A stretch of 28,011 bases of DNA from Acanthamoeba lenticulata (taxonomy: Eukaryota; Discosea; Longamoebia; Acanthamoebidae): assembly GCA_002179805.1 (NCBI GenBank), contig NAVB01001814.1, positions 1 to 28,011 of the forward strand. The letters run 5' to 3'. Positions 1 through 25,803 of the stretch are shown here, in pieces. Each line of letters starts with the position of its first letter. The first letter of the stretch is position 1. The notes below the pieces were generated by a model that saw nothing but the letters and a program-made list of their open reading frames with translations, had not been told where the DNA came from and searched no databases. The translations under genes were made by a program, and so were the position numbers.

Positions 1-8
1 TACTGCAG

Positions 9-101
9 AAGAAGCTCTGGGATCGTAATTATCCTCCGCTTCCTCCCCTGTGGCCCATGCCCTTCCTCCTTCTCCATCTAGCGAGGGGCGGTGGCGCGTA
101 A
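9..101 (+). other. possible last exon of an upstream plus-strand gene
   Basis: The window opens with an acceptor-like CTGCAG at 3-8, followed by an open frame of 30 codons ending in TAA at 99-101. The predicted tail is rich in Pro and Leu. An A-rich stretch with ATA/ATAA repeats (about 109-150) follows and could be 3' flanking sequence. No family can be recognised from so short a piece, and the frame may be open by chance. The remaining sequence to 244 holds nothing else I can support; the transporter gene ends at 245 on the other strand. Confidence 0.2.
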
Positions 102-244
102 AACACCCAAAAAGAAAATAATAATAATAATAAAACAAAAAACCCCAAAAAATTGTTGGGGAGAAGATGACACGTTCTCTCCCGCACTTCCAGGAGCTCC
201 TAGGCCAAGAACTACATATTTACACGTGTGACGGTCGACAATGG

Positions 245-2378
245 TTACCGCTCCAGGGGCGAGTCGTCCACGTTTTCACGGGCGGGACTGCGCGCCAGCG
301 TCCACCAGTGCAAACCAGCCACGGGTACAAAGCCCACGCACGCGGCTATCATGATCGTGAACGTGAGTTGTGTCAGACATCCGGTCAAGTCCCTTCCCCA
401 CCTCCAGATGGGCAACGAGAACGAACCTGCAAAAAGGAGAAGCATGGTCTTGAAGCTGAGCCACTCCACTAACGCGCCTCCAATGAGCGGCCCTTTGGAT
501 GGCGCAGACTCTTATGTCAATCAAAAGTGGAAGAGCAATCAGGTCGAAGAAGAGGTCCGTACCGCCCAACATGCCAAAGGCGTAGAACCAGTTGAATATG
601 GCGTAGACCCGGCCGTAGACTCCCCCGCCCATCGCATCCACAGTCGCGGCCAGTTCAGAGAGCGTCGGCGTGAGCGCGCAGGCCGAGGTGACGCCAACGG
701 CTACCAGCATGACGATCATCAACCACAGCTGGTGGGGCATCCAGAGCAGACTCTGTTGCACGATTTTCACCATCGCCTTCGTTAATCACAAGCCAACTTG
801 AGCCATCATGTGCAAGGCGAAGGCTGAACCAGAGAGATGGAGAGCGTGACGAGGCCGACGAGCATGGGAACGCGTCCGCCGATCCGATCTGAGAGCCAGC
901 CGACCAGGGGAGCCATGGTGCCGTGCGCCAGGGCCATGGCCATGAAGGCCAGCCCGATCACCACCGACGACGCGCTGAAGCGCTCTGGTATGAACACAGG
1001 GCACGGCTAAGCTATAGCTCGAGTTAAAATGAATAATAGGAATTAATGGTACACAAACCTTGGAGGACGGCTGGCAGGGTGGGCTCGAGGACGGTGATGG
1101 CGTTGGCGCCTAGGGCTACGATAATGTTGGTGACCAGCACATTGCGGTTGAGTAGGATCTCGAAGAAGGTCGGCGACCGCTTGGCCACCGGCGGCGGCAA
1201 ATGCTGGCGCACCTTCTCCAGGTCCTCATCGGTGTACAGCACGTCGTCGGCCGTCGCTGCAGTGGAATACAACGTTTGATCAGTGGGGAGGGCTGACACG
1301 GCTGGCTCTTGGGAAAAAGCGCACAGTAGCCAAAGCCCTTCATCGGCGTGGTGTCCTCGCCGCGGTGCTGCGCCAGCAAGTGCGTGCTGGCGGTGGCCTC
1401 TGATCCGTCTCCAGCCTCGCCCTGGTCACTGTCATACAGGCGGGCTGGCTTCACGCGCTCCGTGATGAGCACCACCCGCACGATGGCGTCGAGCAGCGCC
1501 ATGCCTGCCACCCACGAGGGCCCCGTGAGTCCCGTGACCGAGCTCGAGCGAAGGAGGAGAATGGAAGCCAGAGAGACCAGAAGCGAGGAAAAACGGCATC
1601 TGGTAGCCGCCAAACTGGTACACGAAACCGCCGAACGGCGGGCCGATCAGCATGCCGAGCGACATCGCGGTCATGACGATGCCCATGACGCTCCCGAGCT
1701 CTTCTGCCGGGTAGGTGTCGGCCAGCAGCGCCAGGCCGGCCACCCACGTCGCCGCTGAGCTCGCGCCCTGCATGAACCGTGCCAGGACCATCAACGGGTA
1801 GTTTCTGCAGCGCACGACAGAACCCGTCAGCTACAACCGTCCGAGCTGTGGCCATGAGCGTGACGAGAGGGACCCAGTACTGGGTGAAGGCCAGCGTGAT
1901 GGTGGCGGCGCTCAGGCCCACCAGGCCGCCCAGCATGGGCCACTTCCGTCCAACCCTGGGAAACCACATGTGCAGAGCACGTGCCATTGCGTGTAGCCAC
2001 ACTGCCGGTTATGGAACCAGACGGAGGCCGGAGCTCAAAGAGGAGGGTGCCTTACGTGTCGGCGAGGATGCCAAGAAGTGGCGTGAACAAGAGCAGGCCG
2101 CCGGCGTAGCCAGCAAACAAGACGCCCAGCTGAGTGGGCGGCACCAAAGCACAAGACACGTGGTGGCGGAGGAGGTTGGCGGACGAGGGTGGCATGAAAG
2201 AAAGGAGCTGCAGGGCCCATGGGAGGAGGTTCTGTACCTGGAAGGGGGTGACTTGCAGCACCTCCGGCACGAAGATAGGAACCACCATGCCGTACACCAA
2301 CCCGTCTGTGAACACGGCAACAGCCACCACGATGAGCGAGGAGACCGGCGCCTCACGTAGCGCCTCGAGTCGACCCAT
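245..2378 (-). CDS. major facilitator superfamily transporter (DHA1-like)
   Basis: Exons on the minus strand: 2378-2238, 2129-2056, 1955-1881, 1804-1578, 1504-1325, 1256-1059, 984-830, 776-563, 492-245; together 1512 nt, 503 residues, in frame. It is a 12-helix-type MFS carrier most like the DHA1/vesicular amine transporter group, which exchange small molecules for protons; the substrate cannot be read from sequence. Helix 1 has FTDGLVYGMVVPIF, the loop 2-3 motif A is GRKWPML, and the helix 5 antiporter motif C region is GMLIGPPFGGFVYQFGG. The second half repeats the pattern with SDRIGGRVPML and GGPLIGGALVEWL. A hydrophilic linker of about 80 residues joins the halves. I start at the ATG at 2378, 12 residues before helix 1; an upstream in-frame TTG is not a credible start. 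The last exon has a poorly conserved stretch between helices 11 and 12 that might hide another intron. Confidence 0.88.
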
Positions 2379-2792
2379 CTCCTCGCGCGTGTTGTGTAAC
2401 AACGAAATCTTACAGCCTTCGAGGAAGCATCCGCTTCTCCATTTTCTCTCGGTTTAGTTATTATTTATGAAATGCTTTTCCTTCAGTTCGGGCTCATCGG
2501 CGATTCCACGGAGAAGTCGGCGAAAGCACGAACCAGCTGCGTGTACACCGGGTGGCCGACCTCGAAACGTAGAGGAAACCCATCCCGAACTTGACTGAGG
2601 CCTTTGGACACGCGCTCGGATCACGGTGATTCGCACCGGAGCCGTGTGTTCTCGTCACTGCTTCCCCAATTCCATTGCAAAACGGCCAACTGCGGCGTCT
2701 CAGTTGAATTCTCTACACCTCAGCGCCACTCTGGATAGACGTTTAGAGCGAGAGAGAAGCGAACACTAAAACTCAACAATCGCACAACAAAC
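2379..2792. promoter_or_regulatory. shared divergent promoter region (transporter / CNNM gene)
   Basis: This 414-bp gap separates two genes read outward in opposite directions, so both promoters and both 5' leaders must lie here. The 45 bases before the CNNM ATG are A-rich and free of ATG, as expected of a leader. I see no clear TATA box or repeated operator-like element. Confidence 0.4.
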
Positions 2793-5016
2793 ATGAAAAG
2801 CCGGCATGCAGCGCTCACAGCTCTCAGCCTGGCCGTTGGCGCAGGGCCGCACCTGGTCCGGGCCGACTGGGCCTTTGACATTCCACATGTGGGGACGGTC
2901 GAGATAGCTCACCTCCCCACAGTCGGCGCCAGCTTCGCCATCTTGCTCAGCTCTTGCTTCGTCCTTCTCTGCCTCGCAGGTGAGCCCTTTTTTTCGATCT
3001 TTGTTCTTTTTTCGTTCTTTTTGGCTGATGTATCGGCGCCATTCTCATGCTCAGGCATGCTCTCGACACTGACCATCAGCCTCATGTCCACCGATATGGT
3101 GAGCCTCCAAATCCTCATCAATGGTGGCGGCACACCCCGAGAACAAAAATACGGTACGTCCTCCTCCTCCTTCCGCTCCCCCAAACCCGTCCGGGGTACT
3201 CATCTGATGAGGTCTTGCCTCTCAGCCTCGCGAATTGCAAGCGTGACGAAGAAGCGCCACTTGCTCTTGGCTACTCTCTTCATCGCCAACGCCGCGGTCA
3301 TGTCTGCCCTTCCCGTCCTCCTCTACTTGTACGCTTACCTTTTTGCTCTTCCCTACAATGAGGGCTGGAGACTCACTTGTGTTCGTGGTCCAGCCTCTTT
3401 GGACCGCTCCCGGCCGTGCTGTTGGCCGTCGGCTCCATTCTGGTCGCTGGCGAGTACGTTCTTTCGCTTCAGCTCGAATCGAACGGCGGTCTTTCAAGCC
3501 CACCAGATGCTTACCATTTGCTGCTTGTGTGCGCGTAGGCTGATGCCGCAGGCCTTGGGCTCGCGGTACGGCCTCTTCATCGGCGGCAACCTCGTGTGGC
3601 TGGCCTGGGCGCTGATCGCGCTCCTCTACCCGCTTGCCTGGCCTGCGAGCCTCATCCTCGACTGGGCTCTGGCCGGCTCCCAGAGCACCTTTTACCGTCG
3701 TGCTGGTGCGTTTCATTTAGTTCTAATTATTCACATTTTTAATTTTTTAAAATAAAATGTGGATAATAATTCAAATTCCGCAGAGCTTGCCGAGCTGGTG
3801 AGCCTCCACGTCCGCGAGACGCAGGCCAAGGGCGCGGCCAAGCGCGAGCGGACGCTCGACGCCGCTGAGCGGGGCGAGCACCTCGAGGAGAGCGAGGAGG
3901 AAGGCCTCTCCGTCGACGAGGCCAACATCATCAAGGGTGCGCTCTCATTCGCCTTCTCCCTTGTGTCGGCCGCATGGTCTCACCGTCGCGCACCGTCGTC
4001 ATCATTAGGTGTGCTGGACATGAAGGTCAAGACGGTGTCCAAGTGCATGACCCCGCTGGCCAAGGTTTTCATGCTTTCCCTCTCGGACAAGCTCAACGAG
4101 AAGACCATGGACAAGGTACTCTTCGACGTCCCTCCCAATGGTCGGCTTGAAGGGAAGCTGACGGACCCACGCGCGCCACAGATTTTGCAGAGCGGGTTCA
4201 GCCGCGTGCCGGTGTACCAGGACAAGAAGAACAACATCATCGGGATGCTCATCGTCAAGAACCTGATCAAGCTGTCGCCCAAGGACGCCGTGCCCATCGA
4301 GGAGCTCAACCTCCACCGCCTTCCGACGGTGGGCGCCGACATGCCCCTCCACCCCATGCTCGACCTCTTCCAGCGCGGCCAGAGTACGCTTCGCCCTTCT
4401 TTGCTTCTTCTTGTCTTCGAAAAAGCATGCGATGCTGACGGGAGTTGAACCCGCGATCTGCGCAGGCCACATGGCGCTGGTGGTGGACCCGGCCGACCGG
4501 GTGACGGTGCAGGGCGTGATCACCATGGAGGACATCATCGAGGAGCTCATCCAGGAGGAGATCGCCGACGAGACCGACAACAACCGCGAGATGATGGACT
4601 CGCTCCGGGCGCAGGGCATGAAGCCCCGGTTCAACAAGAACCCGCTGGGCGACCGCGACACGCGCCGGCTGGAGCGCGCTGTGTCGTCCATCGTGCTGCC
4701 CTTCCGCAGCAACCCGCTCGACCAGGTCATCCAGGCCGGCGCCGCATCGGTTACGGGCGCCGGCGCGGGCCCGCAGCGTGGGCGCGCGGGCATGATCGAG
4801 GCCAGCAGCTACAACAACCTGCTGGGCCTCAAGAAGGCGGCCGGCAAGCAGCGCATCCTGACCCCGCCGGCGTCCTCTTCTTCGTCTTCCTCTTCGGTGG
4901 CCATCAACACCGACGTGCCCACCGACGGCGGCGCGGGCCTCGATGCCGATGCGCGCACGCCGCTGCTCAGCGGGCGGGCGCCCTCGACCACCCGCGTGAC
5001 CTTCGCACGCGACTAG
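2793..5016 (+). CDS. CNNM-family membrane protein with DUF21 and CBS pair
   Basis: Exons 2793-2979, 3055-3153, 3226-3328, 3394-3453, 3539-3705, 3784-3936, 4009-4115, 4182-4383 and 4466-5016 join to 1629 nt, 542 residues. The product resembles CNNM/MAM3 proteins, linked in animals and yeast to Mg2+ and other divalent metal homeostasis. Residues 1-24 look like a signal peptide. The DUF21 region (about 50-205) shows the family pattern: LSTLTISLMSTD, a GGTPREQKYA stretch, KKRHLLLATLFIANAAVMS, and ELMPQALGSRYGL before the last helix. A helical linker (206-256) leads to two CBS motifs (about 257-395) with KCMTPLAKVFML, SRVPVYQDKKNNIIGML and VQGVITMEDIIEELIQEEI, which in the family bind adenine nucleotide. 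The tail is Ser-rich and ends in LLSGRAPSTTRVTF. Most introns are phase 1. Metal specificity is not visible. Confidence 0.93.
4420..4459 (-). other. tRNA 3'-half-like sequence inside CNNM intron 8
   Basis: On the minus strand the intron 4384-4465 contains a T-arm-like stem and loop (GCGGG-TTCAACT-CCCGT, 4438-4454), with the B-box pattern GGTTCAACTCC, followed by seven bases like an acceptor 3' strand and then TTTTT (4424-4420), as in a Pol III terminator. No matching D-arm, anticodon arm or acceptor 5' strand precedes it; that side is CNNM coding sequence. I read it as a tRNA-derived fragment or a chance match, not a working tRNA. Confidence 0.3.
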
Positions 5017-5140
5017 GAAGCGCCTTTTTGTAATTGAAGCTCGTCGGAAATCTTTTTCGACTAATATCTCAAAAACAAATACTCAAAAAAGAAAGAAATA
5101 ATAAAGAATTAAAAACATATCAAAGCCACATTGTGGAGCC

Positions 5141-8100
5141 TTACAAGGCGCTCTCGTGCTGGTTGTGGCGCTCGCGGAGGTGGTGGGCGAAGGCGCGCAG
5201 GAAGTGCTCTTGGCGCTCGCTTTCGATGGCGCGCGGGTTGTTGCGCGCTTCGCGCACAAGGCGCACCACCGTCGCGACGTCGCCCGCCGCGGCGCCGTAT
5301 TGCAGGACGGTGCAGCCCGCCAGCACGCCGCACCGGCCGAGGCCGCTCCACGACACCAGGACCACGTTCTGGCCGGCGACGAGGGCGTCGCCTATCCACC
5401 GCACGAGCTCCGCCGTCTGCTCGAGCGACGGCGTCGAGTGGAAGAACACGGGCACGTGGTGGAACACGATGCCGCGCTTCTCGGCCAGCGTGCGCAAATT
5501 GCGCACGCCGCATTCAAAGAGCTCCTGGTCGTTGGCTAGGCACAGGAGGCGGTCGACGCCCTGCGCCCGCAGTTCGTCCAGGTCGAGCCCCTCGTCGCGC
5601 CACTTGCGGCCCGGGATGATGGTCATCCCCAGCCGGCCCGGCACCAGCGGCATCGCCTCGCGGGGCAGCCAGTATACGCGGATCGGGCCCTCGTGCCTCG
5701 AATAGGTCGCGGCCACCACCTCGGCGAACCCACACGCCGCCGCTGTGACGTCGCGATGGCCACACCATGCATAGAGAGAGAGAGAGAGAGAGACACAACC
5801 GGTCAGCCCGCGAGCCAAGGACAGGCGCGTAAGAATACGGACCGAGAGCCCACTTGCGGTTGAGCGGGGAGAGGTGCGAATAGGTCATGGCGTGGAGCGC
5901 GTAGCGGAGCAGCGGGATGGCCATGCCCAGCGGCTCGCGCCGGCCCTGCACGATGCCCACCGTGATCTTGCGCAGCGTGCGCACCGTGTGGTAGGCCCGC
6001 ACGAACTTGGGCTGGTGCAGGCCCGGCAGCGTCTCGGGCAGGTCCTCGCCCAGGTCCCTGCGCGTATGGTGAGCCTGCAGCAGCCCGCGAACAGACGACA
6101 ACAGCGACGACGACGACGAGGCGGGCCGCACCGAACGCGAAGGAGGAGGTTGGTAATGAGCATGCCCTCGGCCAGGTCCTCCTCGCTCTCGAGCGCGGTG
6201 AAGCAGTAGAGTGTGTCGGACTCGAGCTTGCTGACGTCCTTCAGCACATGCCCAGGGCCTGTGTGCGAGAAGTCGATGATCCAGATGTTGCGGTGGTCGT
6301 CCACCATGATGTTTCCCGCGTTCAGATCCCCGTGCTGCACGAGATAAATAATTGATTAACATTCTGATTATATTTATATTTATATTTATATTTATATTTA
6401 TATTTATATTTAGATTTATATTTATATTTATATTTATATTTATATTTTTAATTAATATTTAATTCAATTTGGAGTGGAGCGTGCCTGAATGGAGACGAGG
6501 TGGGCCTCGCCAGCATGGCGTGGCAGCTTGGGCAGGTCGTGCTCGAGGAAGAGCGCGACGTTCCTGAAGCTGGTGCCCCCGGCAAACTCCAGACGTTCTT
6601 GCTTGCCGTCCTCGACGCCCATCAGCTCGCGCACGCGCTCTGCGACTTTGTCGGGCCTGCTCACCATTTCGTTTCCCCCACCGCCCAACACCCTCGTCAA
6701 CGACAAGCCGCAGGCCTGGCTTGGTGGGCAAGCCGCGCGCACCGATCGGTGCCGCCGGCGGCGTAGGACCACCCGACGCCGTCAAAGTCCTGTACGACGA
6801 TGCAGAAGAGACGTGGCCGAGGAAGGGAAAGAGGTCAGGCGGGCGTGCACGGCATGGTCCACACGCGGTGCGCAGGCGGACGCACGTAAAAGTCGAGCAG
6901 CTTGAGCGGACGCATGATGGCCGCCCGGTAGAACCGGCCGAGGACCTCGACCAGTGCCGTGTTGATGATGTCGTCAATGTCGTCCTGTGGCGCTCCCTCG
7001 AGGTAGAGCGAGCGAAGCGTGGCCGAGCCCTTGCCCTTTTGCCGCATGGCAGCGTAGGCGAACTTGATGCCGGACCGCGTCTTGTAGTCGATGAAGCTGC
7101 ACACATAGACGCCCAAAAGGTTGGTTCATTCAATCGAAGAACCACCCAACGCAGAGATGCGAGCAATAGAGCGCAGGGCCAGTGGCGAGTACTCGTGAAT
7201 CGTGGGCGCGTTGTTGCCCAACACGTCCTGCACCCGCTCAAAGTTGACCCGCTCCTGTACAAGGCCGAGACACATCACGCCGCCGCGGGGGATGACGTCA
7301 GCACAGCTACGGCCACCCACAGGCGACGACAGGTCAGTTGGCGTGCCTGAGCGATCTCGGTGCGCGGGCCCAGCTTGAGGACGAACATGGGCTGCTCGTG
7401 GCCCACCATGTCGCAGGACTTGACCCGGAACACGAGCGACCCGGAGAAGCCGCCGGATAAGTGGTGCAGACTCACCCGCGTCGAGCTCCGGAACAAATAG
7501 CTGCGGGTTCGGCCCAGGTAAGTCGACATTCACCATCTACGCGGCGGAGCGCACTGGCACGAACCAGACGATGGACATGTCCTCGTCGCTGAGCGGGAGG
7601 GGCTCCGAGTCCTCCCCGACGACGGTGGGACAGTAGTCGTAGGAGATGGGTGGGAGGCCCAGCAGGGAGTCGGCCTTTGGGAGCAGCCACGCCACAAAGT
7701 CGCCCACGCTGTCGGTCACGGTGACCCCTGTACACCATAGATGGCAGCACCATCACCGTCGTCGCCATTTCCATCGAATCAGCAACAGTTCAGTTCATCA
7801 TCATACGATGAGCTCATGTGGTGCGAAAAAAACGCATCCCGAGCAGAGAATCCGCACCGAGGACGGTCTTGAGGTGCTTCAGGGCTGTGAAGTGGTCCGC
7901 GCGCGAGCCGCCGGCAGTCAGGGCGCTGCAAGTGCCCAAGTCCTTGACGCGCAGCCGAGTGCGCAGGTCGTACAACAGATACGACACCTGCACGTCAACC
8001 ACATAAGAACACGTCTTCAGATCCGAAGGCCTACGCCAGCGATGGTCGAGAGCAACCCACGTGACCTTGACCTCGGTCCACACGCCGACAACGCCGATCC

Positions 8101-8832
8101 GCAGCTTGGCGCCCTTGGCCTCTGCCTTGGCCTGAGCGGTCTTGAGGAGCTCAGGCAAGTTGGTCTCCTCGAAATCATTGAGGCCCGTCCTCTGAGCGTG
8201 CCAGCCGGGCGCTGTGAATTGAAGGCACAACAATAAAAAGAAATGGGCGGCTCGCGGAGAGTTGGGATGGGTTGAGCCACCTCACTGGCATTTACGAAGA
8301 ACTCGTTGGGCCGGTTCTTGGCTCCCTCTTCGAGGCCCAGCACGAGCGAGGCGCCGGGCGTGCCGGCCAGGCAGTGCTCGCCGAACCTCGTGAAGTGCTC
8401 CTCGCCCTCTGCTTTCGCGTGCCAATCGCTGGTGCCCAAGAAGGATGAGCTGAAATGCCACCGTGCAACTTCCTTGACAAGGTTTGGTGAGTGCGGCCGC
8501 AGGAGGGAGCCGACCGTATGTGGATGATCATGAGCTCATCTGTGTCCTGCATGCGCGCCCAGTGGACGAGCTGGCCAAGCGGTCCTGCATGGTGTGGAGC
8601 GCCATGATATCTGAGCGCTGACAGCTCGCCCTGCTACCTCCAGAGCTCTCGTTTGGGGAAAGTCCGTACCAGGGGCTTCCCTCGAGCAGCCGCGGCCGAT
8701 GAGGCGCTCTGACTCGGACCGACCGACGTGCATGCGGTTGGGCAGAGGTTCAGTAAGCGACAGCGGTCGCAGCAGATCATTCTGGAGGCACTGCGTCACC
8801 AGCACTGAGTACCAGGTCCCGTTTTCCTGCAT
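5141..8832 (-). CDS. isochorismatase-like / kinase-like / phosphatase-like fusion protein
   Basis: Fourteen exons: 8832-8670, 8584-8515, 8428-8281, 8191-8066, 7987-7858, 7727-7541, 7500-7347, 7254-7193, 7096-6886, 6789-6743, 6656-6485, 6334-6132, 6057-5843, 5742-5141; 2490 nt, 829 residues. Residues 1-250 resemble isochorismatase-type hydrolases (LVTQCLQNDLL, HIRDWHAK, FGEHCLAGTPGA, GVVGVWTEVKV, SALTAGGSRADHF). Residues 280-600 resemble aminoglycoside/choline-kinase-like phosphotransferases: LSGGFSGSLVFRV loop, Lys317 in FVLKLGP, HGDLNAGNIMVD (Asp493, Asn498), Asp511 in WIIDFSHTGPG. Residues 640-829 resemble CDKN3/dual-specificity phosphatases. The kinase motifs are intact; the outer domains lack their usual catalytic residues. 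The domains recall bacterial multidomain proteins; I recall a similar kinase-like domain described as ternary-complex-associated domain 9, unverified. Introns 7255-7346 and 6335-6484 need GC donors. Exon 3/4 has an alternative in-frame splice (8286/8211), and exon 12/13 may also have one (6138/6081). Confidence 0.85.
5773..5792. repeat. (AG)10 microsatellite
   Basis: Ten AG units lie within the last intron (5743-5842) of the fused gene. In the sense of that gene the tract is CT-rich and sits about 30 nt before the acceptor, so it may act as a polypyrimidine tract. Confidence 0.9.
6369..6446. repeat. (ATATTT)n hexanucleotide array
   Basis: About thirteen copies of a six-base AT-only unit, with one A-to-G change near 6413, fill much of the intron 6335-6484 of the fused gene. 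The array is sharply AT-rich against GC-rich exons. The intron is the longest in that gene and has a GC donor. Confidence 0.92.
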
Positions 8833-9095
8833 TCATGAGGGTGAGTTACGTCCATGCACCATAGTCTAAAATATAGAATGACTTCATCAACACGCGCCTG
8901 GGTGGGTGAGTCAGTGCTTGGGTGGTCATCCATCCTTGCGCCAAGCTAAAGAAAAGAGAAAATGAAAAGAAAACCACCTTAACCGCCTTTTGCTGCTCTC
9001 GCCACCTCTTGATCTTCACCACACGCCCTCAAAATCGATCGGCCCCCTTTTTCTTCCTAAGACCTCTGAGCCTTATTGCCTGCAGCACTACGTCC
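8833..9095. promoter_or_regulatory. shared divergent promoter region (fusion gene / F-box gene)
   Basis: This 263-bp gap lies between two divergent genes. An AT-rich core near 8863-8880 (TCTAAAATATAGAATG) is the best candidate for a TATA-like element and lies about 35-45 bp from the fusion-gene ATG. The part next to the F-box gene is a pyrimidine-rich leader. The assignment rests on position and composition only. Confidence 0.35.
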
Positions 9096-9740
9096 ATGCA
9101 ATCGCTCCCCGACGAGCTTCTCTTAATCGTCCTTGCAGCCTTGCCACCAGCAGACTTGCGCCGCTTCATGCTCACTAGCAAGAGGCACCACGAGCTGGCT
9201 CTCGGCCACTTGAATCATCAGGCCAAGCGCTACGCGAAGAGAGCTGCACCCAAGCTTCTCGTGGGTGCAAAGAGAACGAGGTTCGTGATGGGCAAGCTGA
9301 CCCGCCTCGTGTCCCCTGGGCTTGTGCTGGAGGCCTATCGAGGACGGCACGGCCTCGAAGTCGACATCCGCCAGGGGGAGACTCAGGAGGACGAGGTCGT
9401 TTGCAGCTACGGCCTGGACTTCACTCTCCCGCCCCTCCTTGTTGATCCCATCAGCTTTTTCATTCGCTCTCCCCGGTGTCTCATCGAGTATGCGGACGGC
9501 ACAAACTTCCTCATCCGGGTGAGGGACAAGTGGACGCGCACCAGCGAGTTCTCGTTTAAGGAGTTCGCGATCAACGATGCCCAAGAGGGCCACACCATCC
9601 AGTTCCCTTTTTTCACTGTGGACCAACAAACGGAATCAAGCGGTCCCTATCACGAGTGCAGCCTGCCATTGATGAGAAAGGCCAACGCTGAGATACAAGG
9701 CCTCTTGGACCTGCTCCAGCAGAACGACATGATCATTTAA
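9096..9740 (+). CDS. small F-box protein
   Basis: A single-exon gene of 214 residues. Residues 1-36 match the F-box: LPDELLLIVLAALPPADLRR followed by a Thr-Ser-Lys and a His-rich stretch where the family often has a conserved Trp. F-box proteins usually join SKP1-cullin ubiquitin ligases and present a substrate with the C-terminal part. Here residues 60-214 form a basic linker, then a probably beta-rich region with no family I recognise; it ends in a Leu/Gln-rich helix (IQGLLDLLQQND). The frame is open upstream to 8922, but the ATG at 9096 places the F-box at the N terminus as usual, and the upstream part reads like a leader. The F-box is weaker than in the larger F-box gene of this window (17342-19653). 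Confidence 0.78.
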   Translation: MQSLPDELLLIVLAALPPADLRRFMLTSKRHHELALGHLNHQAKRYAKRAAPKLLVGAKRTRFVMGKLTRLVSPGLVLEAYRGRHGLEVDIRQGETQEDEVVCSYGLDFTLPPLLVDPISFFIRSPRCLIEYADGTNFLIRVRDKWTRTSEFSFKEFAINDAQEGHTIQFPFFTVDQQTESSGPYHECSLPLMRKANAEIQGLLDLLQQNDMII

Positions 9741-17341: not shown

Positions 17342-19653
17342 ATGCGTAAGGGACCAGAGGAGCCTCGGTACTGGATCTCGCGCAGGCCCGATTTGACATC
17401 GCCGTCGCCGTCTTTTGGTGTGCCTTCTCCGCGGCCCCTCGATGGACCTTCTGCTATGCTGCAGGTAGTCGACAGCCCGGCACGGCTGCTGCCTGAAGAG
17501 TTGTGGCTTGGAATCTTGTCACATCTGCACGAGATCGTCGACATCACCAACGCCGCCCTCGTGTGCAAGCAGTGGTACCGCCTGACGCAGGATCCCTACC
17601 TGGAAAACGAGCGGGCCGGGGCGCTGTTCCTGCTCGGCACAACCGTTCTCGACTTCTCGCGGCTCATGGTGGCCCACGAGCGCGTGCGGGACGTGCTCCG
17701 GGCTGAGCCCCGCTTCGCCAGCTGGGACGACTACGAGCGCCTCGTCAAGCAGGACGGCAAATACGGCGCCTGCCTCGTCCCAACACACGACGTGGCGCTC
17801 GTCAAGATGCTCCACCTCGAATCGGCCCGCGTCCTGTGGGAGGCCGCCTGGCCCACGAGCCGCGGCGAGCGCCTCGTCTGCTTCTTCCAGGACAAGCTCA
17901 AGGTCTGGTTCGTCCGCGAACGCAGCATCACGTGGTACCTCAAGCGCACCGGCCGCCCTGGTGCGTCTCCTTCTGGGTCCTGCCTCCGTTGGCTCACGCA
18001 TGATGATGGTGATGGTGATGATGACGATGATGGTGTGCTTGCAGGGCCGTCGGTGGCGCTCCATGACCTGGTCAAGGACTACCACCCAGAGGCCCGCATC
18101 CGAGCGGTGCGCGCCCGGTGAGCCTCGCACGCGATCGCGCGCGTAGCCGTGACTCATTGGAAACGGCACATGTGCAGGGCGTGGTCTATGGCGCGAACCT
18201 GGTGGTGGCGGTTACGTCCGACGACGTCGTGTCGGGCGTCAAGCGTTGCCTCTTGTGGCTCGACAAGACCAGCCTCAAGGCAAGGCCCAACCTTTTTCCA
18301 TCATAGTTATTTATTTATTTATTTATTTATTATTTTGGTTTTTTTGTTATTTTGCTGACGTTTTGGGCGCAGATCAAGGAGCGGCGGGACAACGCTGAAG
18401 GTCTCCCAGGCCAGATGACGCTCAACGTGCTGCGACCGCCTTACGTGCCGCAGCCGCTGCTGGCCTGCGCCATCAACAACGAGCTCAAGGTCTACGACGA
18501 GCACGCGCGAGAGCTCCACATCTTTGGCTTCCGCACGTCGTTCCTCCTGGGCAAGACGCACGTCCTGCTCTACAAGCGAGACACCAACGGCGACAAGAAC
18601 TGCTTCTATCGCATCATCCGGATCGAGGACTCCAAGCTGGTGGGCGTCTTTCCGCACGTCCTGCGCAACGACCAGAGCGTGTTCCTCCTCGAGCGCGGCG
18701 AGTCGCCGGTGATGCCCCGCCCGGGCTCCCGCGGGCCCTCGACCCCGGGCCGCTTCGAGGGCATTCTTGTTTCGTCCAACCTGGGCCTCGCCTTCCACGT
18801 CCTGGACGGCGTCGACGACGCTGACGCCGACAAGGCTGACTACGATGATGCCGCCGGCGATGTACAAGAGCCGATTGCCCAGAGGCCTCTGCTGCAGCGC
18901 AGCGGAAGCAGCCCCGGACGAGGGGATGAGGCCAGTCGTGGCACGGCCGGGACCGGCTGGACAAGCCGAAGCGCGAGACATCGGAGCGGCTTCGCGGCGA
19001 CGTTCCCCAAGGCGGCGGGCATGGCCGCCGACTCGTTTTCGCAACTGATTCGATCCAACCCGTTCACGTCGCTCTCCTCATCGCTCTCCTCCGTCCTCCC
19101 GCTCTACTCCTCGTCCTACCCGCCGCCTCCGCCATCACCGCCGCCATCGGCACAGCCGTCCCTCCCGCGGCGGGTCTCGGACCCGCCAATGGCATCGACG
19201 GCCACGGGCACGGGCACGGCCCGAAGCCAAGGCGGTGGCTTTGTGTTTGACAGCGCGGCGGTGCCGACGACGCGATGCGCGTGGACGCAGCCGAACGTGT
19301 TCCACGACTCGGACCTGGTGTCAACCTCGGCCGTGCTGTACCGGGAGCGATTCGTCATCGTCGTGCGCGTGTGGGCCTTTCTGGGCGGCCGCCAGCTGTT
19401 CGACCTGCAGTGCGTCGATGTGGCCACGGGCGCGGCGCGCTGGCACGAGCGGCTAGAGAGCCTGCAGGAGTCGCACCACGCCGACCTCAAGCTGGTCCTG
19501 CTCGGGTCCAAGATATACCTCTACTTTGTGTCGCGCGAGGCCTCATACTTCCTCAAGATCTTCGAGGCCTGGAGCGGCAAGTGTCTGTTCTCCTTCAAAG
19601 AGGAGATGGCCGCCTCGTCGGCAACAGCCGCGATCCAGGGATCTGCAGAGTAA
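17342..19653 (+). CDS. large F-box protein with probable C-terminal propeller
   Basis: Exons 17342-17960, 18045-18106, 18178-18279 and 18373-19653 give 2064 nt, 687 residues. A clear F-box lies at residues 49-88 (LLPEELWLGILSHL, then AALVCKQWYRLTQDP), which would bind SKP1 in an SCF ubiquitin ligase. The remainder has recurrent beta-strand patterns such as GVVYGANLVVAV, LLACAINNELKVYDE, TSFLLGKTHVLLYKRD, RERFVIVVRVWAFLGGRQLF and SKIYLYFVSREASYFLKIF, suggesting a beta-propeller like that of quinoproteins; this is inference. A disordered Ser/Pro-rich insert with a run of prolines (residues 430-540) divides it. The third intron uses a GC donor (AAG|GCAAGG). An alternative start at Met39 (17456) is just before the F-box. 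Confidence 0.87.
18307..18331. repeat. (TTTA)n tetranucleotide tract
   Basis: About six TTTA units lie in the GC-AG intron 18280-18372 of the large F-box gene. They are strongly AT-rich compared with the exons on either side. Confidence 0.85.
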
Positions 19654-20498: not shown

Positions 20499-22286
20499 AT
20501 GGCCACATATTCTCAACTTGTCTGCCCCACAATGACCGCAGGACACAAGCGACCTCGCCAGAGCGTCGCTGTGAATGGCTCTACATCACCGGTACATGCA
20601 GCTTCCTCTTCACTTGTTGTTGTTTCCTCCCCTCGACCCCTCTCGTCGGGGAGAGAGTGAGTCCTGGCAAATTAGGCCAAGTAAGAGCTGCTGTGCACCC
20701 AATAATTTGTCGTCAGCTCCAATCCACGCAACTCATTGGGCCTCGCTTTAAAAATAATTGAGTTTTTTTTCGTTGTTCAGTCAACGTTGTTCGACAACGA
20801 AGCACATGAGCTTACCTGTCGTGACACACAGGACCGACAAGACGTTCATCAATGGGCCGGAGACAAAACTGACAACGGTGGCCACGACGAGAAGTGGGCC
20901 GTTCACCTGCTTCTCCGACTTAAGTCCACCGACTCGGCCCGCAGCAGCAGTGATGACGAAGACCACCAGCAGCAGTCCTACGAGGGCGAAGAGTCCAACC
21001 ACAGCTTCGTCGACGACGACAGCGATGACAGCACAATTGCGACGCCTGTTCGGCGCAGCGCCCGCAAGCGGAGGAGCCAGAGCCACATGTTGGACTTTGT
21101 GTGGGATGACGACCACGAGGACGACGCCGACGACGAGGCCTCGTCTCCTGCCAAGCGCCTTCGACGAATCATGCCTGTAGAGAGCGAGAGCGAGCACGAG
21201 CGACACCAGAGCGAGGCCGATAACGAGCCGAGCGAGCCGAGCGAGAGCGACGAGCACGAGGGTGACGACGAACAGCCCGAGGACGAAGATTTCTCTGAGG
21301 GCGACGAGTACATCGACCCCTCACCCCGCCGACGCCACCGCGCTCCGACCCTCCACAGCAGCAGCAACAACAACGAAGGCAGCTCGTTGAGCCAGCCCAG
21401 CCCGACCACGACGCTGGTTTCGGTGAAGTCCGAGCCAGTCTCGAGCACGCTCAGGACTGGCGCTCTGCCCCTTCCCTCGTTGCTGTCCTCTGCTCCGCCC
21501 AGCCCGGCCTCGTCGACTTCCTCGGCTGTGGCCTCGCCCTCCGTCAGTGTAGCGGCCTCCTGCGCGGCGTCGCCGGCAACGACTCCAGTCAAGAGGACGC
21601 GCAAGCCCAAGTACAGCGCAGCCCTCGAGGCTCGATGGGAGGAGAAGTTTGAGTGGCTGATGGCCTACCGGCGGGCCAAGGGCAACTGCCGCGTGGCCGA
21701 GGGCAACAAGGAGTACCCCGGCCTGGGCAAGTGGCTCAGCAACCAAAAGACCCTGTGCAAGAAGGGCAAGCTCAAGGCCGAGCGCATGCAGAGGCTCATT
21801 GACGTCGGCGCCATCGTCGACCCCGCCCTCAAGGCCGCCAGCGGCTCGGCCAGAGGCTCGCGTCAGCATATGTCGTCGCCCTCGCCGATGTCCTTGTCCA
21901 GCTCCGCGCCCTCGTCTCCGATGTCGGCATCAGGCTCGGCGTCGCCGATCCTCGTTAACCGCTCTGTGGCCACCGTCGACAGCAGCGCCCGATGTGACGA
22001 CGGCGCGCTGACGAAGCGCCGTCGGAGGTCGGAGCATCCGGCCTCGGCGATGGAGCTCTGTGCCTGCCAGGATAAACCGGGAGGCTCATCGCAGCTCCCA
22101 CCGGGCGTTGGTCTCTTCTCGGCCGCCTCGCCCTTCCGAACGTTCCAGGGCAAGCCCATCCTGCCCTCGCTCGGCTTTCCGCCGCAGACGCACCACAGTC
22201 ACGCCCATTCCGCTGGAGGATCGACGTCGTTTCGCCCGTTCCCGCTCGCGATGCCGCCTGTCCTCTTCGCTTCCTACTCGCACTGA
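20499..22286 (+). CDS. acidic protein with a helicase-associated domain
   Basis: Exons 20499-20591 and 20781-22286 give 1599 nt, 532 residues; the intron 20592-20780 has a GTACAT donor and a pyrimidine-tract acceptor. Residues 80-210 are very acidic and Ser-rich, with basic clusters such as RRSARKRRSQ and PAKRLRR that may act as nuclear signals. Around residues 316-378 lies one helicase-associated (HA) domain: WEEKFEWLMAYRRAKGNCRV, GLGKWLSNQKTLCKKGKL, then a helix ending in LIDVGAI. HA domains are three-helix modules thought to bind nucleic acid and often follow helicase domains; none is present here. The rest is Ser/Pro-rich and probably disordered. A role in the nucleus is inferred. The start of exon 2 has weak coding character, so the first intron is less certain than the HA region. 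Confidence 0.78.
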
Positions 22287-23518: not shown

Positions 23519-25803
23519 ATGAAGATTTTCAAGAAGGTCAAGAAGACCGTGACGCCCAAGGGGCCAACCAGCCCACGCGCGTCAGAGGAGCAACAAGAAG
23601 GAGGTCAGCCTCACACAGACCTGGACAACATATGGGGCGAAGTCGAGGGCCTCGTGGGCGACAGCTTCCGCTCCCTGCCCGTCCACAAAGACCTTCATCG
23701 CCTCGCGCCCACCACACGCGTACTCGCCGCCTCCGTAACGGATCAAAAACAAATAATACTAATACCACAAACGCAAAAACGATGCCACGGTCGTTCTTGT
23801 ATGTGCGCGAGTGCAGGTGTGGGACAGCGACGGCCGGTTGCTCAATGGGCCGGAGCTGTTCGCCGAGGATGCCGCTGACGAGCGCCTCAAGCGATTCCTG
23901 CCCACCAAGCGCGTCCTCTGGGCGCTGGCCAACGCCTTTGATCCCACCAAGCGGGACCACATCATGGCCGTCTTTGAGGTGTGCACTCGCACTCCCTCTC
24001 GTCTCGTCGCATGATGACACAATCTCAACCTCAACTCGTCGTCCTCTTTCACGTGCAGGAAAAGGTCGTGCGTGGGCCGATCCACGATATCGTGGGCTCC
24101 ATGCTCGAGTTCTTTGGCCTCATCGACGATGGCGAGGTCGTCGTGCCGCGCCTCCGATGTCTTCGCATCCTTAAGGCACGAACCCTTCCCGGCTTTATCC
24201 GCCCACCAATCGCCCTATGGACACGACCAACTCACTCCTGGATGCCTGATGCCTGCAGTTGGTGAATCAAGCTGTGCTGGCGCCGGCCGTGATCCACCTC
24301 AACCTGTTCATGACCAAGAGCCCCGAGAAGGAGACCTTCATGAACGGCGGCGACTGGAAAATTCGTACACGAGTCCTCTTACTGCGCGTGTTGATGGCGG
24401 CCAAGAGCTGATCATGTCGTGTGCAGACATCAACTGCCACAAGGACGGGCGGGTGACCGTGAGCCACACCAAGTGGGAGAAGAATGCCAAGAATGCTGCA
24501 TTCAAGTGGCGCCTGCGGATGACCCTGAACGACTCCCTGTCGCTGCTTGAGGCCGCCGACCTGGCCTTCACCCGAATCCGCCTGCCGGACTCGCCCGAGG
24601 GCGATGCCCGCCGACGCGCGCTGCTGGACTACGTTGGGCGCTACTACGCGGGCCAGTCCTGCATCGCCGACGCCGAGCGCGAGCAGTGGGCCCGGCCGTT
24701 CCACCAGCTGCCCATCCACAAGTCGCTGCCCACCATCGCCTACCGGACCTCGGTCGTGGACCAGGACGAGGTGGTCTTTCAGTCCGCGGACGGTGTGCCG
24801 GTCGAGCAGAATCTCAAGGCGCTCTTGCTCGTCCTCACGAGGCTCTTCTCGCCAGCCAAGGAGAGCGGTGCGCGCTGAAGCGAAGCCCCACCGGGTCGTT
24901 GTGTGACGACTTGAGGCGAACGTCGGCTGACGTGCGTGGATCGTTGTGGATTTGTGGTGGGGCGGGCGGGGGCGTCTCGGCAGTGGTGGCCAACGAGTTT
25001 GACAGGCGGTTCCAGAAGAACGACGTCGTGAGCTCGCTTCGCTCCTTCCTCCACAACGTGCGGCTCCCGGCTGGCGTCAGTCCCAGTGCCCTCGTGTGTT
25101 TGTGTGTGTTCACACGTGTGAGTGGTGACAGGAGCTCAAGTTGTACGACAGCAGCGCGACGCCTGTGGACGACGGCTCGGACGGTTCGTGTGGCGACGAG
25201 GAGGCGCGGGGCGTGACCGCCGTGCTGAAGACGCTGCACGACAGCGTACTGGCGCCCTGCCTCCTGCTCCTCCACGAGCGCATCGGACCGCCGCTCCTCC
25301 CGCCTGTGCGCGAGAAGGGCGACGCGCTTGTGACTGTCGTCGTTCGCCCTCTGCCTCCCGGCGCCGACAGCAGCGGTGATGACGACGACAAAGGCAAAGA
25401 CAAAGACGATGACAATGACGACGACGACTCGCGCCCGGGAGACGTCAGCACCAACGGGAGCAGCGGCGCCAGTGACACGAAGGTCGAGGGCGGGGACAAC
25501 GAAAGCGGCAGCTTTGCCAAGACTGTCGATGCCTCGCAGGTCGCTGTTCCGAAGGACGACGAGAAGAAGAAGAAGGCCGGCTGGGTGCTCGTGCGACACA
25601 GCAAGCGGGCGGTGGCGGACGTCAGCGCCGAGGCCGACGCCTACTTTGAATTCGCCTGGCATGTGGAACTCGAGCTCGACGCGAGGCTCGAGCGTCTCGT
25701 GGCTGTCCGTTTACGTGTTGACAACTTTGTCTTCGGCCCAGGTGCCGATGCTGATGCGCGCCGGGACCTCGAGACCGCCATCCGGCGAGCTCTCGACTGC
25801 TGA
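23519..25803 (+). CDS. unknown-family protein made of two related halves
   Basis: Seven exons (23519-23734, 23817-23978, 24059-24175, 24259-24364, 24427-24867, 24984-25075, 25132-25803) give 1806 nt, 601 residues. No signal peptide or membrane segment is seen; the N terminus is very basic (MKIFKKVKKTV). The two halves look homologous and collinear: FRSLPVHKDL matches FHQLPIHKSL, LVNQAVLAPAVIHLN matches LHDSVLAPCLLLLHE, and a beta-rich segment near NAAFKWRLRMTLNDSLSLLE matches AYFEFAWHVELELDARLERL. The second copy carries an Asp/Lys-rich, probably disordered insert (about residues 455-530). Intron 3 has a GC donor (AAG|GCACGA). I do not recognise the domain and assign no function. Confidence 0.85.

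Follow-up and report, generated by a model that had tools for sequence, protein, structure and literature searches.

What kind of protein results when a nicotinamidase/isochorismatase fold, a TCAD9/APH-type kinase and a KAP/CDKN3-type phosphatase fold follow one another in a single amoeba gene, and how did the amoeba come by it? This question is raised by a gene on the minus strand at 5141..8832 of contig NAVB01001814.1 of Acanthamoeba lenticulata, which was analysed over its positions 1 to 28,011 (the window, 28,011 nucleotides). The reading that we favour, and to which we give about an even chance, is that of a bacterial multidomain signalling protein taken up by an ancestor that several amoeboid protists share, in which a kinase is combined with a phosphate reader and a ligand-binding pseudo-nicotinamidase.

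Three domains in a broad bacterial family

A first-pass annotation of the window had described the domain order as unusual and the gene as plausibly a captured bacterial one. A protein search returned 186 relatives at E up to 0.001, and among the matches listed (the best 120 of 186) most are 38-46% identical over 97-98% of the length; in these matches the same order is ordinary in a broad bacterial family, with Polyangiaceae, Actinobacteria, Dormibacteria, Binatia, Pseudomonadota and Acidobacteria among the names. A search from the relative P0001 added Willaertia magna, Naegleria lovaniensis, N. fowleri and Acrasis kona, a Bacteroidetes protein (37% identity to P0001), and the Myxococcales and Myxococcota rows P0160 and P0178, from which the phosphatase is absent. 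The order is thus shared by bacteria and by other protists (Naegleria, Willaertia, Acrasis) and is not unusual, while profile and structure searches support the outer domains and confirm the three domain types. Among 189 aligned rows, 175 have three domains, in 11 the phosphatase is absent or truncated, and 3 are partial or different, counts that are biased towards full length, as each search scored about 8000 candidates of similar length. A search with the C-terminal half matched only two proteins.

The bacterial proteins, annotated as 'isochorismatase family protein' or 'protein-tyrosine phosphatase/nicotinamidase-related amidase', have the same three domains in the same order as A. lenticulata, mostly at about 36-46% identity, but their phosphatase loop mostly carries Cys and their genes have no introns. 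The TCAD9 proteins of Naegleria, Willaertia and Acrasis (P0180, P0181, P0162, P0183) share the kinase and phosphatase domains and have Ser for Cys, but differ by long inserts (up to 1466 aa) and by the loss of the metal motif and the Lys of the N-terminal domain (N-domain), part of which is absent from the Acrasis row. No functional test of the bacterial three-domain proteins was found in literature searches, and no publication on the fusion in the open-access literature searched.

In the phylum of locus L016 (Myxococcota), 16/282 genomes match P0005 at E up to 1e-30. With at most 11 candidates scored per genome, the N-domain was sought in 266 Myxococcota genomes, and in 15/15 genomes with a match it lies at the three-domain gene. 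One other context of the N-domain was seen, in P0186, and because this protein fuses it to a Ser/Thr protein kinase, it suggests that the N-domain can serve kinases as an input module. P0184 (977 aa) has a calponin-homology domain, then the N-domain and the kinase, and is without a phosphatase.

Structure of the gene

Exons were assembled from the minus strand between 5100 and 9000, with GT-AG or GC-AG introns removed. The gene runs from its start at 8832 to its stop at 5141, and its 14 exons, separated by 13 introns, join in frame:

5141..8832, minus strand: whole gene; 14 exons; 821 residues, or 829 with the other exon 6 end
8670..8832, minus strand: exon 1; nicotinamidase-like domain begins; VLVTQCLQNDLL motif
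8515..8584, minus strand: exon 2
8281..8428, minus strand: exon 3; metal motif DWH ... H
8066..8191, minus strand: exon 4; GVWTEVK, with Lys at the catalytic Cys position
7858..7987, minus strand: exon 5
7565..7727, minus strand: exon 6; end chosen by homology (the 829 model implies 7541)
7347..7500, minus strand: exon 7; glycine-rich loop and kinase Lys317 (309 in the 821 model), codon 7376..7374
7193..7254, minus strand: exon 8; the upstream intron 7 is GC-AG
6886..7096, minus strand: exon 9
6743..6789, minus strand: exon 10
6485..6656, minus strand: exon 11
6132..6334, minus strand: exon 12; HGDLNAGN loop 6334..6311, IDF metal Asp 6274..6272; the upstream intron 11 is GC-AG
5843..6057, minus strand: exon 13; kinase C-lobe helices
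5141..5742, minus strand: exon 14; kinase end, KAP/CDKN3-like pseudophosphatase domain and stop
5333..5356, minus strand: phosphate loop VSWSGLGR; Ser (5353..5351) at the catalytic Cys position, Arg retained

The first joined draft had 834 residues and the next model 829, the length given in the first-pass annotation; the single gene with 14 exons in frame stands, but homology prefers 821 residues. The 834-residue form (intron 3, CACAG acceptor) was rejected, as it scores below the 829 model against 7/7 homologues. Likewise, a 64-nt intron 6 was preferred to the 40-nt one in the 829 model, since moving the end of exon 6 to 7565 by homologue comparison raised the score against 7/7 homologues; an insert of eight residues disappears and SIVCYLFR then stands opposite AILCYLFR of P0001. 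Residue numbers below are those of the 829 model, and past residue 266 the 821 model runs 8 lower. Exons of the 829 model have a GC content of 0.66, introns one of 0.54. The 13 introns, and the position between eukaryote-type CNNM and F-box genes, led us to reject bacterial contamination. An ATATTT repeat (plus strand, 6370-6447) lies within intron 11, where the surrounding GC content is about 60%.

A conserved kinase

The central part matches Pfam TCAD9 (PF19974) at 161.9 bits against a cut-off of 40 (E 3.8e-47). The ATP Lys, the HGDxxxxN loop and the metal Asp of APH/choline kinase-like kinases are all present in A. lenticulata, and the residues that the first-pass annotation had picked out as kept are nearly invariant: Lys317 and Asp493 each occur in 186/188 homologues, Asn498 and Asp511 each in 187/188, with gaps otherwise and zero substitutions. 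The A. lenticulata kinase domain probably works, to judge from these residues. Choline kinase and the APH aminoglycoside kinases have the same kinase fold and the same HGDxxxxN and IDF residues, and Foldseek with the P0001 model found choline kinase (1.7e-6, TM 0.37) and APH(3')-IIIa (3.4e-5, TM 0.48), at modest target TM-scores. The kinase part has no row among the matches listed in the other fold search. One article reports that a Plasmodium choline kinase matches a TCAD9 motif (PMC11195610).

A nicotinamidase fold with exchanged residues

The N-domain has the fold of the isochorismatase-like cysteine hydrolases, which use an Asp-Lys-Cys catalytic triad. This triad is not kept. A Lys (GVWTEAKV) stands at the Cys position of 3hb7 (GVWTNVCV), the triad Asp position is Cys, as placed by the motif and the aligned range (model 82 to 3o93 residue 1) assuming no gap, and the triad Lys position lies opposite a small residue in the 3hb7 alignment; the nicotinamidase/isochorismatase-like hydrolases 3hb7, 3o90 and 1ilw thus have the Asp and Cys of the triad where this domain has Cys and Lys. 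The DWH motif and the HC that follows align with the nicotinamidase 1ilw, and we take them to be the Asp/His metal site of nicotinamidases. Over 188 homologues, Cys15 is found in 176, Lys169 in 179, the three metal residues in 180 apiece, and Thr166 and Cys189 in 186. As read from the alignment, the exchange of Asp/Cys for Cys/Lys is not decay in the amoeba, because Cys15 and Lys169 are common to the bacterial-type rows; the first-pass claim of an altered first domain therefore holds for the residues, but not as a trait of the amoeba, since nearly all bacterial-type rows share it. Neither the metal motif nor the Lys survives in the rows of Naegleria, Willaertia and P0182, and the kinase residues are retained in Heterolobosea.

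Such conservation of Cys15, Lys169 and the metal residues is at a level typical of catalysis, and it would suit an N-domain that has remained catalytic, its Cys nucleophile moved and a Lys acting as base within the former pocket, and that passes its product to the kinase. All four aligned hydrolases of the Protein Data Bank (PDB), however, keep Cys at the family's Lys position here (no further search for a swapped hydrolase was made), and in Heterolobosea the Lys and the metal motif go while the kinase residues stay. We regard a working enzyme of this kind as distinctly unlikely.

A phosphatase fold with and without its cysteine

In fold and in sequence, the best match of the C-terminal domain (C-domain) is human KAP/CDKN3 (1fpz, 1fq1), and the profile places it in the same family. 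The catalytic CX5R motif is lacking in A. lenticulata, where Ser replaces Cys. Of 188 homologues, 137 have Cys at this position, 37 have Ser and 14 do not reach it, and the loop Arg is retained in 174/174 rows reaching the loop. All seven eukaryotic-type rows that reach it (A. lenticulata, P0001, P0162, P0180, P0181, P0183 and the metagenome fragment P0187) have Ser, and all seven lack the general-acid Asp. Among 166 bacterial-type rows reaching the loop, two further Cys rows being set aside, the acid Asp is kept in 133/135 Cys rows vs 16/31 Ser rows. All 31 of these Ser rows belong to a single group of 63, in which another 31 rows have Cys, and the FastTree tree needs 12 Cys/Ser changes in all. 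The claim of an altered phosphatase is accordingly borne out for A. lenticulata, with Ser for Cys and the acid lost, but the bacterial-type loop is mostly intact (Cys in 137/174 overall).

Human KAP/CDKN3 differs in being an active phosphatase on cyclin-dependent kinases, whereas in A. lenticulata the domain carries Ser at the Cys position and forms one chain with a kinase. Phosphatases changed from Cys to Ser are used as substrate traps, and we know of no fusion to a kinase in the pseudophosphatases STYX, MK-STYX and STYXL2. As in the A. lenticulata C-domain, the catalytic Cys has been lost naturally in these three, with Ser in MK-STYX and STYXL2 (PMC8269279). For KAP itself, it is reported that phosphatase activity is absent after the change of Cys140 to Ser (PMC4216094).

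The changes at catalytic positions in both outer domains, together with the missing or shortened phosphatase of 11/189 rows and the N-domain metal motif lost in Heterolobosea, would also fit a one-way small-molecule kinase whose outer domains are relics serving folding or dimerisation only. The retention of the phosphatase-loop Arg in every row and of Thr166 and Cys189 in nearly all seems, however, to go beyond the needs of folding, and few amino-acid changes separate two copies of the gene. The second copy, on contig C81:62000-66904 (L022) of the same genome, matches 1479-6385 of the window at 97.3% over 4.9 kb and ends at the contig end; over the last three exons the copies are separated by 9 silent differences, one of them in the stop codon, and by 3 that change the residue, and they are probably two haplotypes. 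We consider relic outer domains possible but doubtful.

A probable single transfer into amoeboid protists

A first tree was built from 76 rows and 745 columns (trait columns excluded; bacterial-type rows with <85% coverage or >70% identity and P0186-P0188 left out). In it, 10 eukaryotic-type rows are separated from 66 bacterial-type rows by a branch with a support of 99 in the Shimodaira-Hasegawa-like approximate likelihood ratio test (SH-aLRT). A more careful 35-row tree, with 26 of the 66 bacterial-type rows and with the long-branch row P0184 excluded, groups the 9 eukaryotic-type rows with support 100/99 and in 200/200 bootstrap trees, the bootstrap being not fully settled. The A. lenticulata gene pairs with P0001. 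Both trees are unrooted and show one eukaryotic-type group without indicating the donor, and the eukaryotic status of P0182, P0184 and P0185 is our reading from tree place and sequence. The supported group of ten eukaryotic-type rows fits the proposal that a bacterial gene was captured and then gained introns, which is probably right. One old transfer from bacteria, with introns gained later, appears to be the simplest reading because bacterial breadth stands on one side and patchy amoebae on the other; the patchiness may reflect either loss in other lineages or further transfer between protists.

Bacterial neighbourhoods and the conflict-system hypothesis

The name TCAD9 suggests a part in NTP-dependent conflict (immune) systems of the vWA-MoxR-VMAP kind, as effector or as regulator, and the first-pass annotation had also likened the domain types to those of conflict-system proteins. 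The strength of the Pfam match speaks for such a role, as does a figure legend that describes TCAD9 as associated with vWA-MoxR-VMAP (PMC10910872); the available text of another article, in which the term TCAD is absent, reports a few active APH-like kinases among effectors (PMC7159879, eLife 52696). Against it stand the bacterial loci sampled. No gene family is common to more than three of 18 loci, and a shared operon was rejected for these 18, other gene families being common to two or three loci at most. The contig scan, with one query sequence, gave 10 loci, of which L017 and L018 are short kinase-motif matches; these two and L015 were excluded from the neighbour analysis. Ten flanking genes from 8 loci encode, by Pfam, a sulfatase, a PALP enzyme, Lon, a hydrolase, DUF1552, a desaturase, a phosphate transporter and a protein kinase, with two unmatched; no vWA or VMAP gene is among these ten, and the sole AAA_5 match lies within the Lon protease. 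PADLOC gave no match for P0001, P0005 or P0180; for P0186 it gave 34, and all 25 among the matches listed fall in the protein kinase part. Nothing in these neighbourhoods points to an operon or to a defence island. The conflict-system link, which rests on a Pfam name, gains no support from the sampled loci and flanking genes or from PADLOC, and we consider it very unlikely.

A kinase beside a proposed phosphate reader

Under the favoured reading of a transferred signalling protein, the choline kinase/APH-like domain would phosphorylate a small molecule or a protein, and the N-domain would bind a ligand and thereby gate the kinase. In the bacterial form the C-terminal phosphatase may undo the kinase step within the same chain; in the eukaryotic form the C-domain would act as a reader, holding the phosphorylated product or partner without cleavage.

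Several points weigh against this. The dead phosphatase domain may be merely structural, and the trap idea leans on an engineered KAP substitution, A. lenticulata being also without the acid Asp. The link between Ser and acid loss is not significant once kinship is considered (median p 0.5 over 7 independent pairs from supported branches; P0184, P0186-P0188 and short rows excluded). The role of the N-domain is not constant, given its losses in Heterolobosea, and the bacterial-type rows are mostly metagenome proteins. The kinase fold assignment rests on Pfam and a predicted model, and phmmer with the kinase part against PDB sequences found nothing significant (best 0.28).

A bolder version, which we think rather improbable, is that the kinase makes a phospho-mark that the Ser phosphatase traps, while the nicotinamidase-derived pocket with Cys/Lys and metal site senses a pyridine-type or redox signal; bacteria would have changed repeatedly between a Cys form that reverses the mark and a Ser form that holds it, of which free-living amoebae would have only the latter.

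Other features of the window

A CNNM-type gene (2793-5016, plus strand; PF01595 at 8.4e-11 in the open reading frame (ORF) 2793-3752) lies tail-to-tail with the three-domain gene. CNNMs are reported to be bound by PRL phosphatases acting as pseudo-phosphatases (PMC12192612), and PRL phosphatases also turned up when the C-domain was compared by fold; this coincidence of neighbour and fold match is probably chance. Two F-box genes lie on the plus strand, one from about 9097 (ORF 8922-9737) and one at 17342-18118, as do the ORFs 20736-22283 (helicase-associated HA domain) and 24072-24875 (GlfB_C domain).

Significance

The interest of this family lies in a natural design of kinase plus dead phosphatase, recurrent in bacteria and found in a single eukaryotic group. 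If the favoured reading is right, it would provide a natural test of the passage from enzyme to reader, with intact and dead loops beside the same kinase, and the two could be compared among the bacterial-type members of one group as well as across the divide from bacteria to protists. It would also add a case in which a nicotinamidase fold is coupled to kinases, and the transfer to eukaryotes of an intact three-domain protein, common to A. lenticulata and the heterolobosean amoebae.
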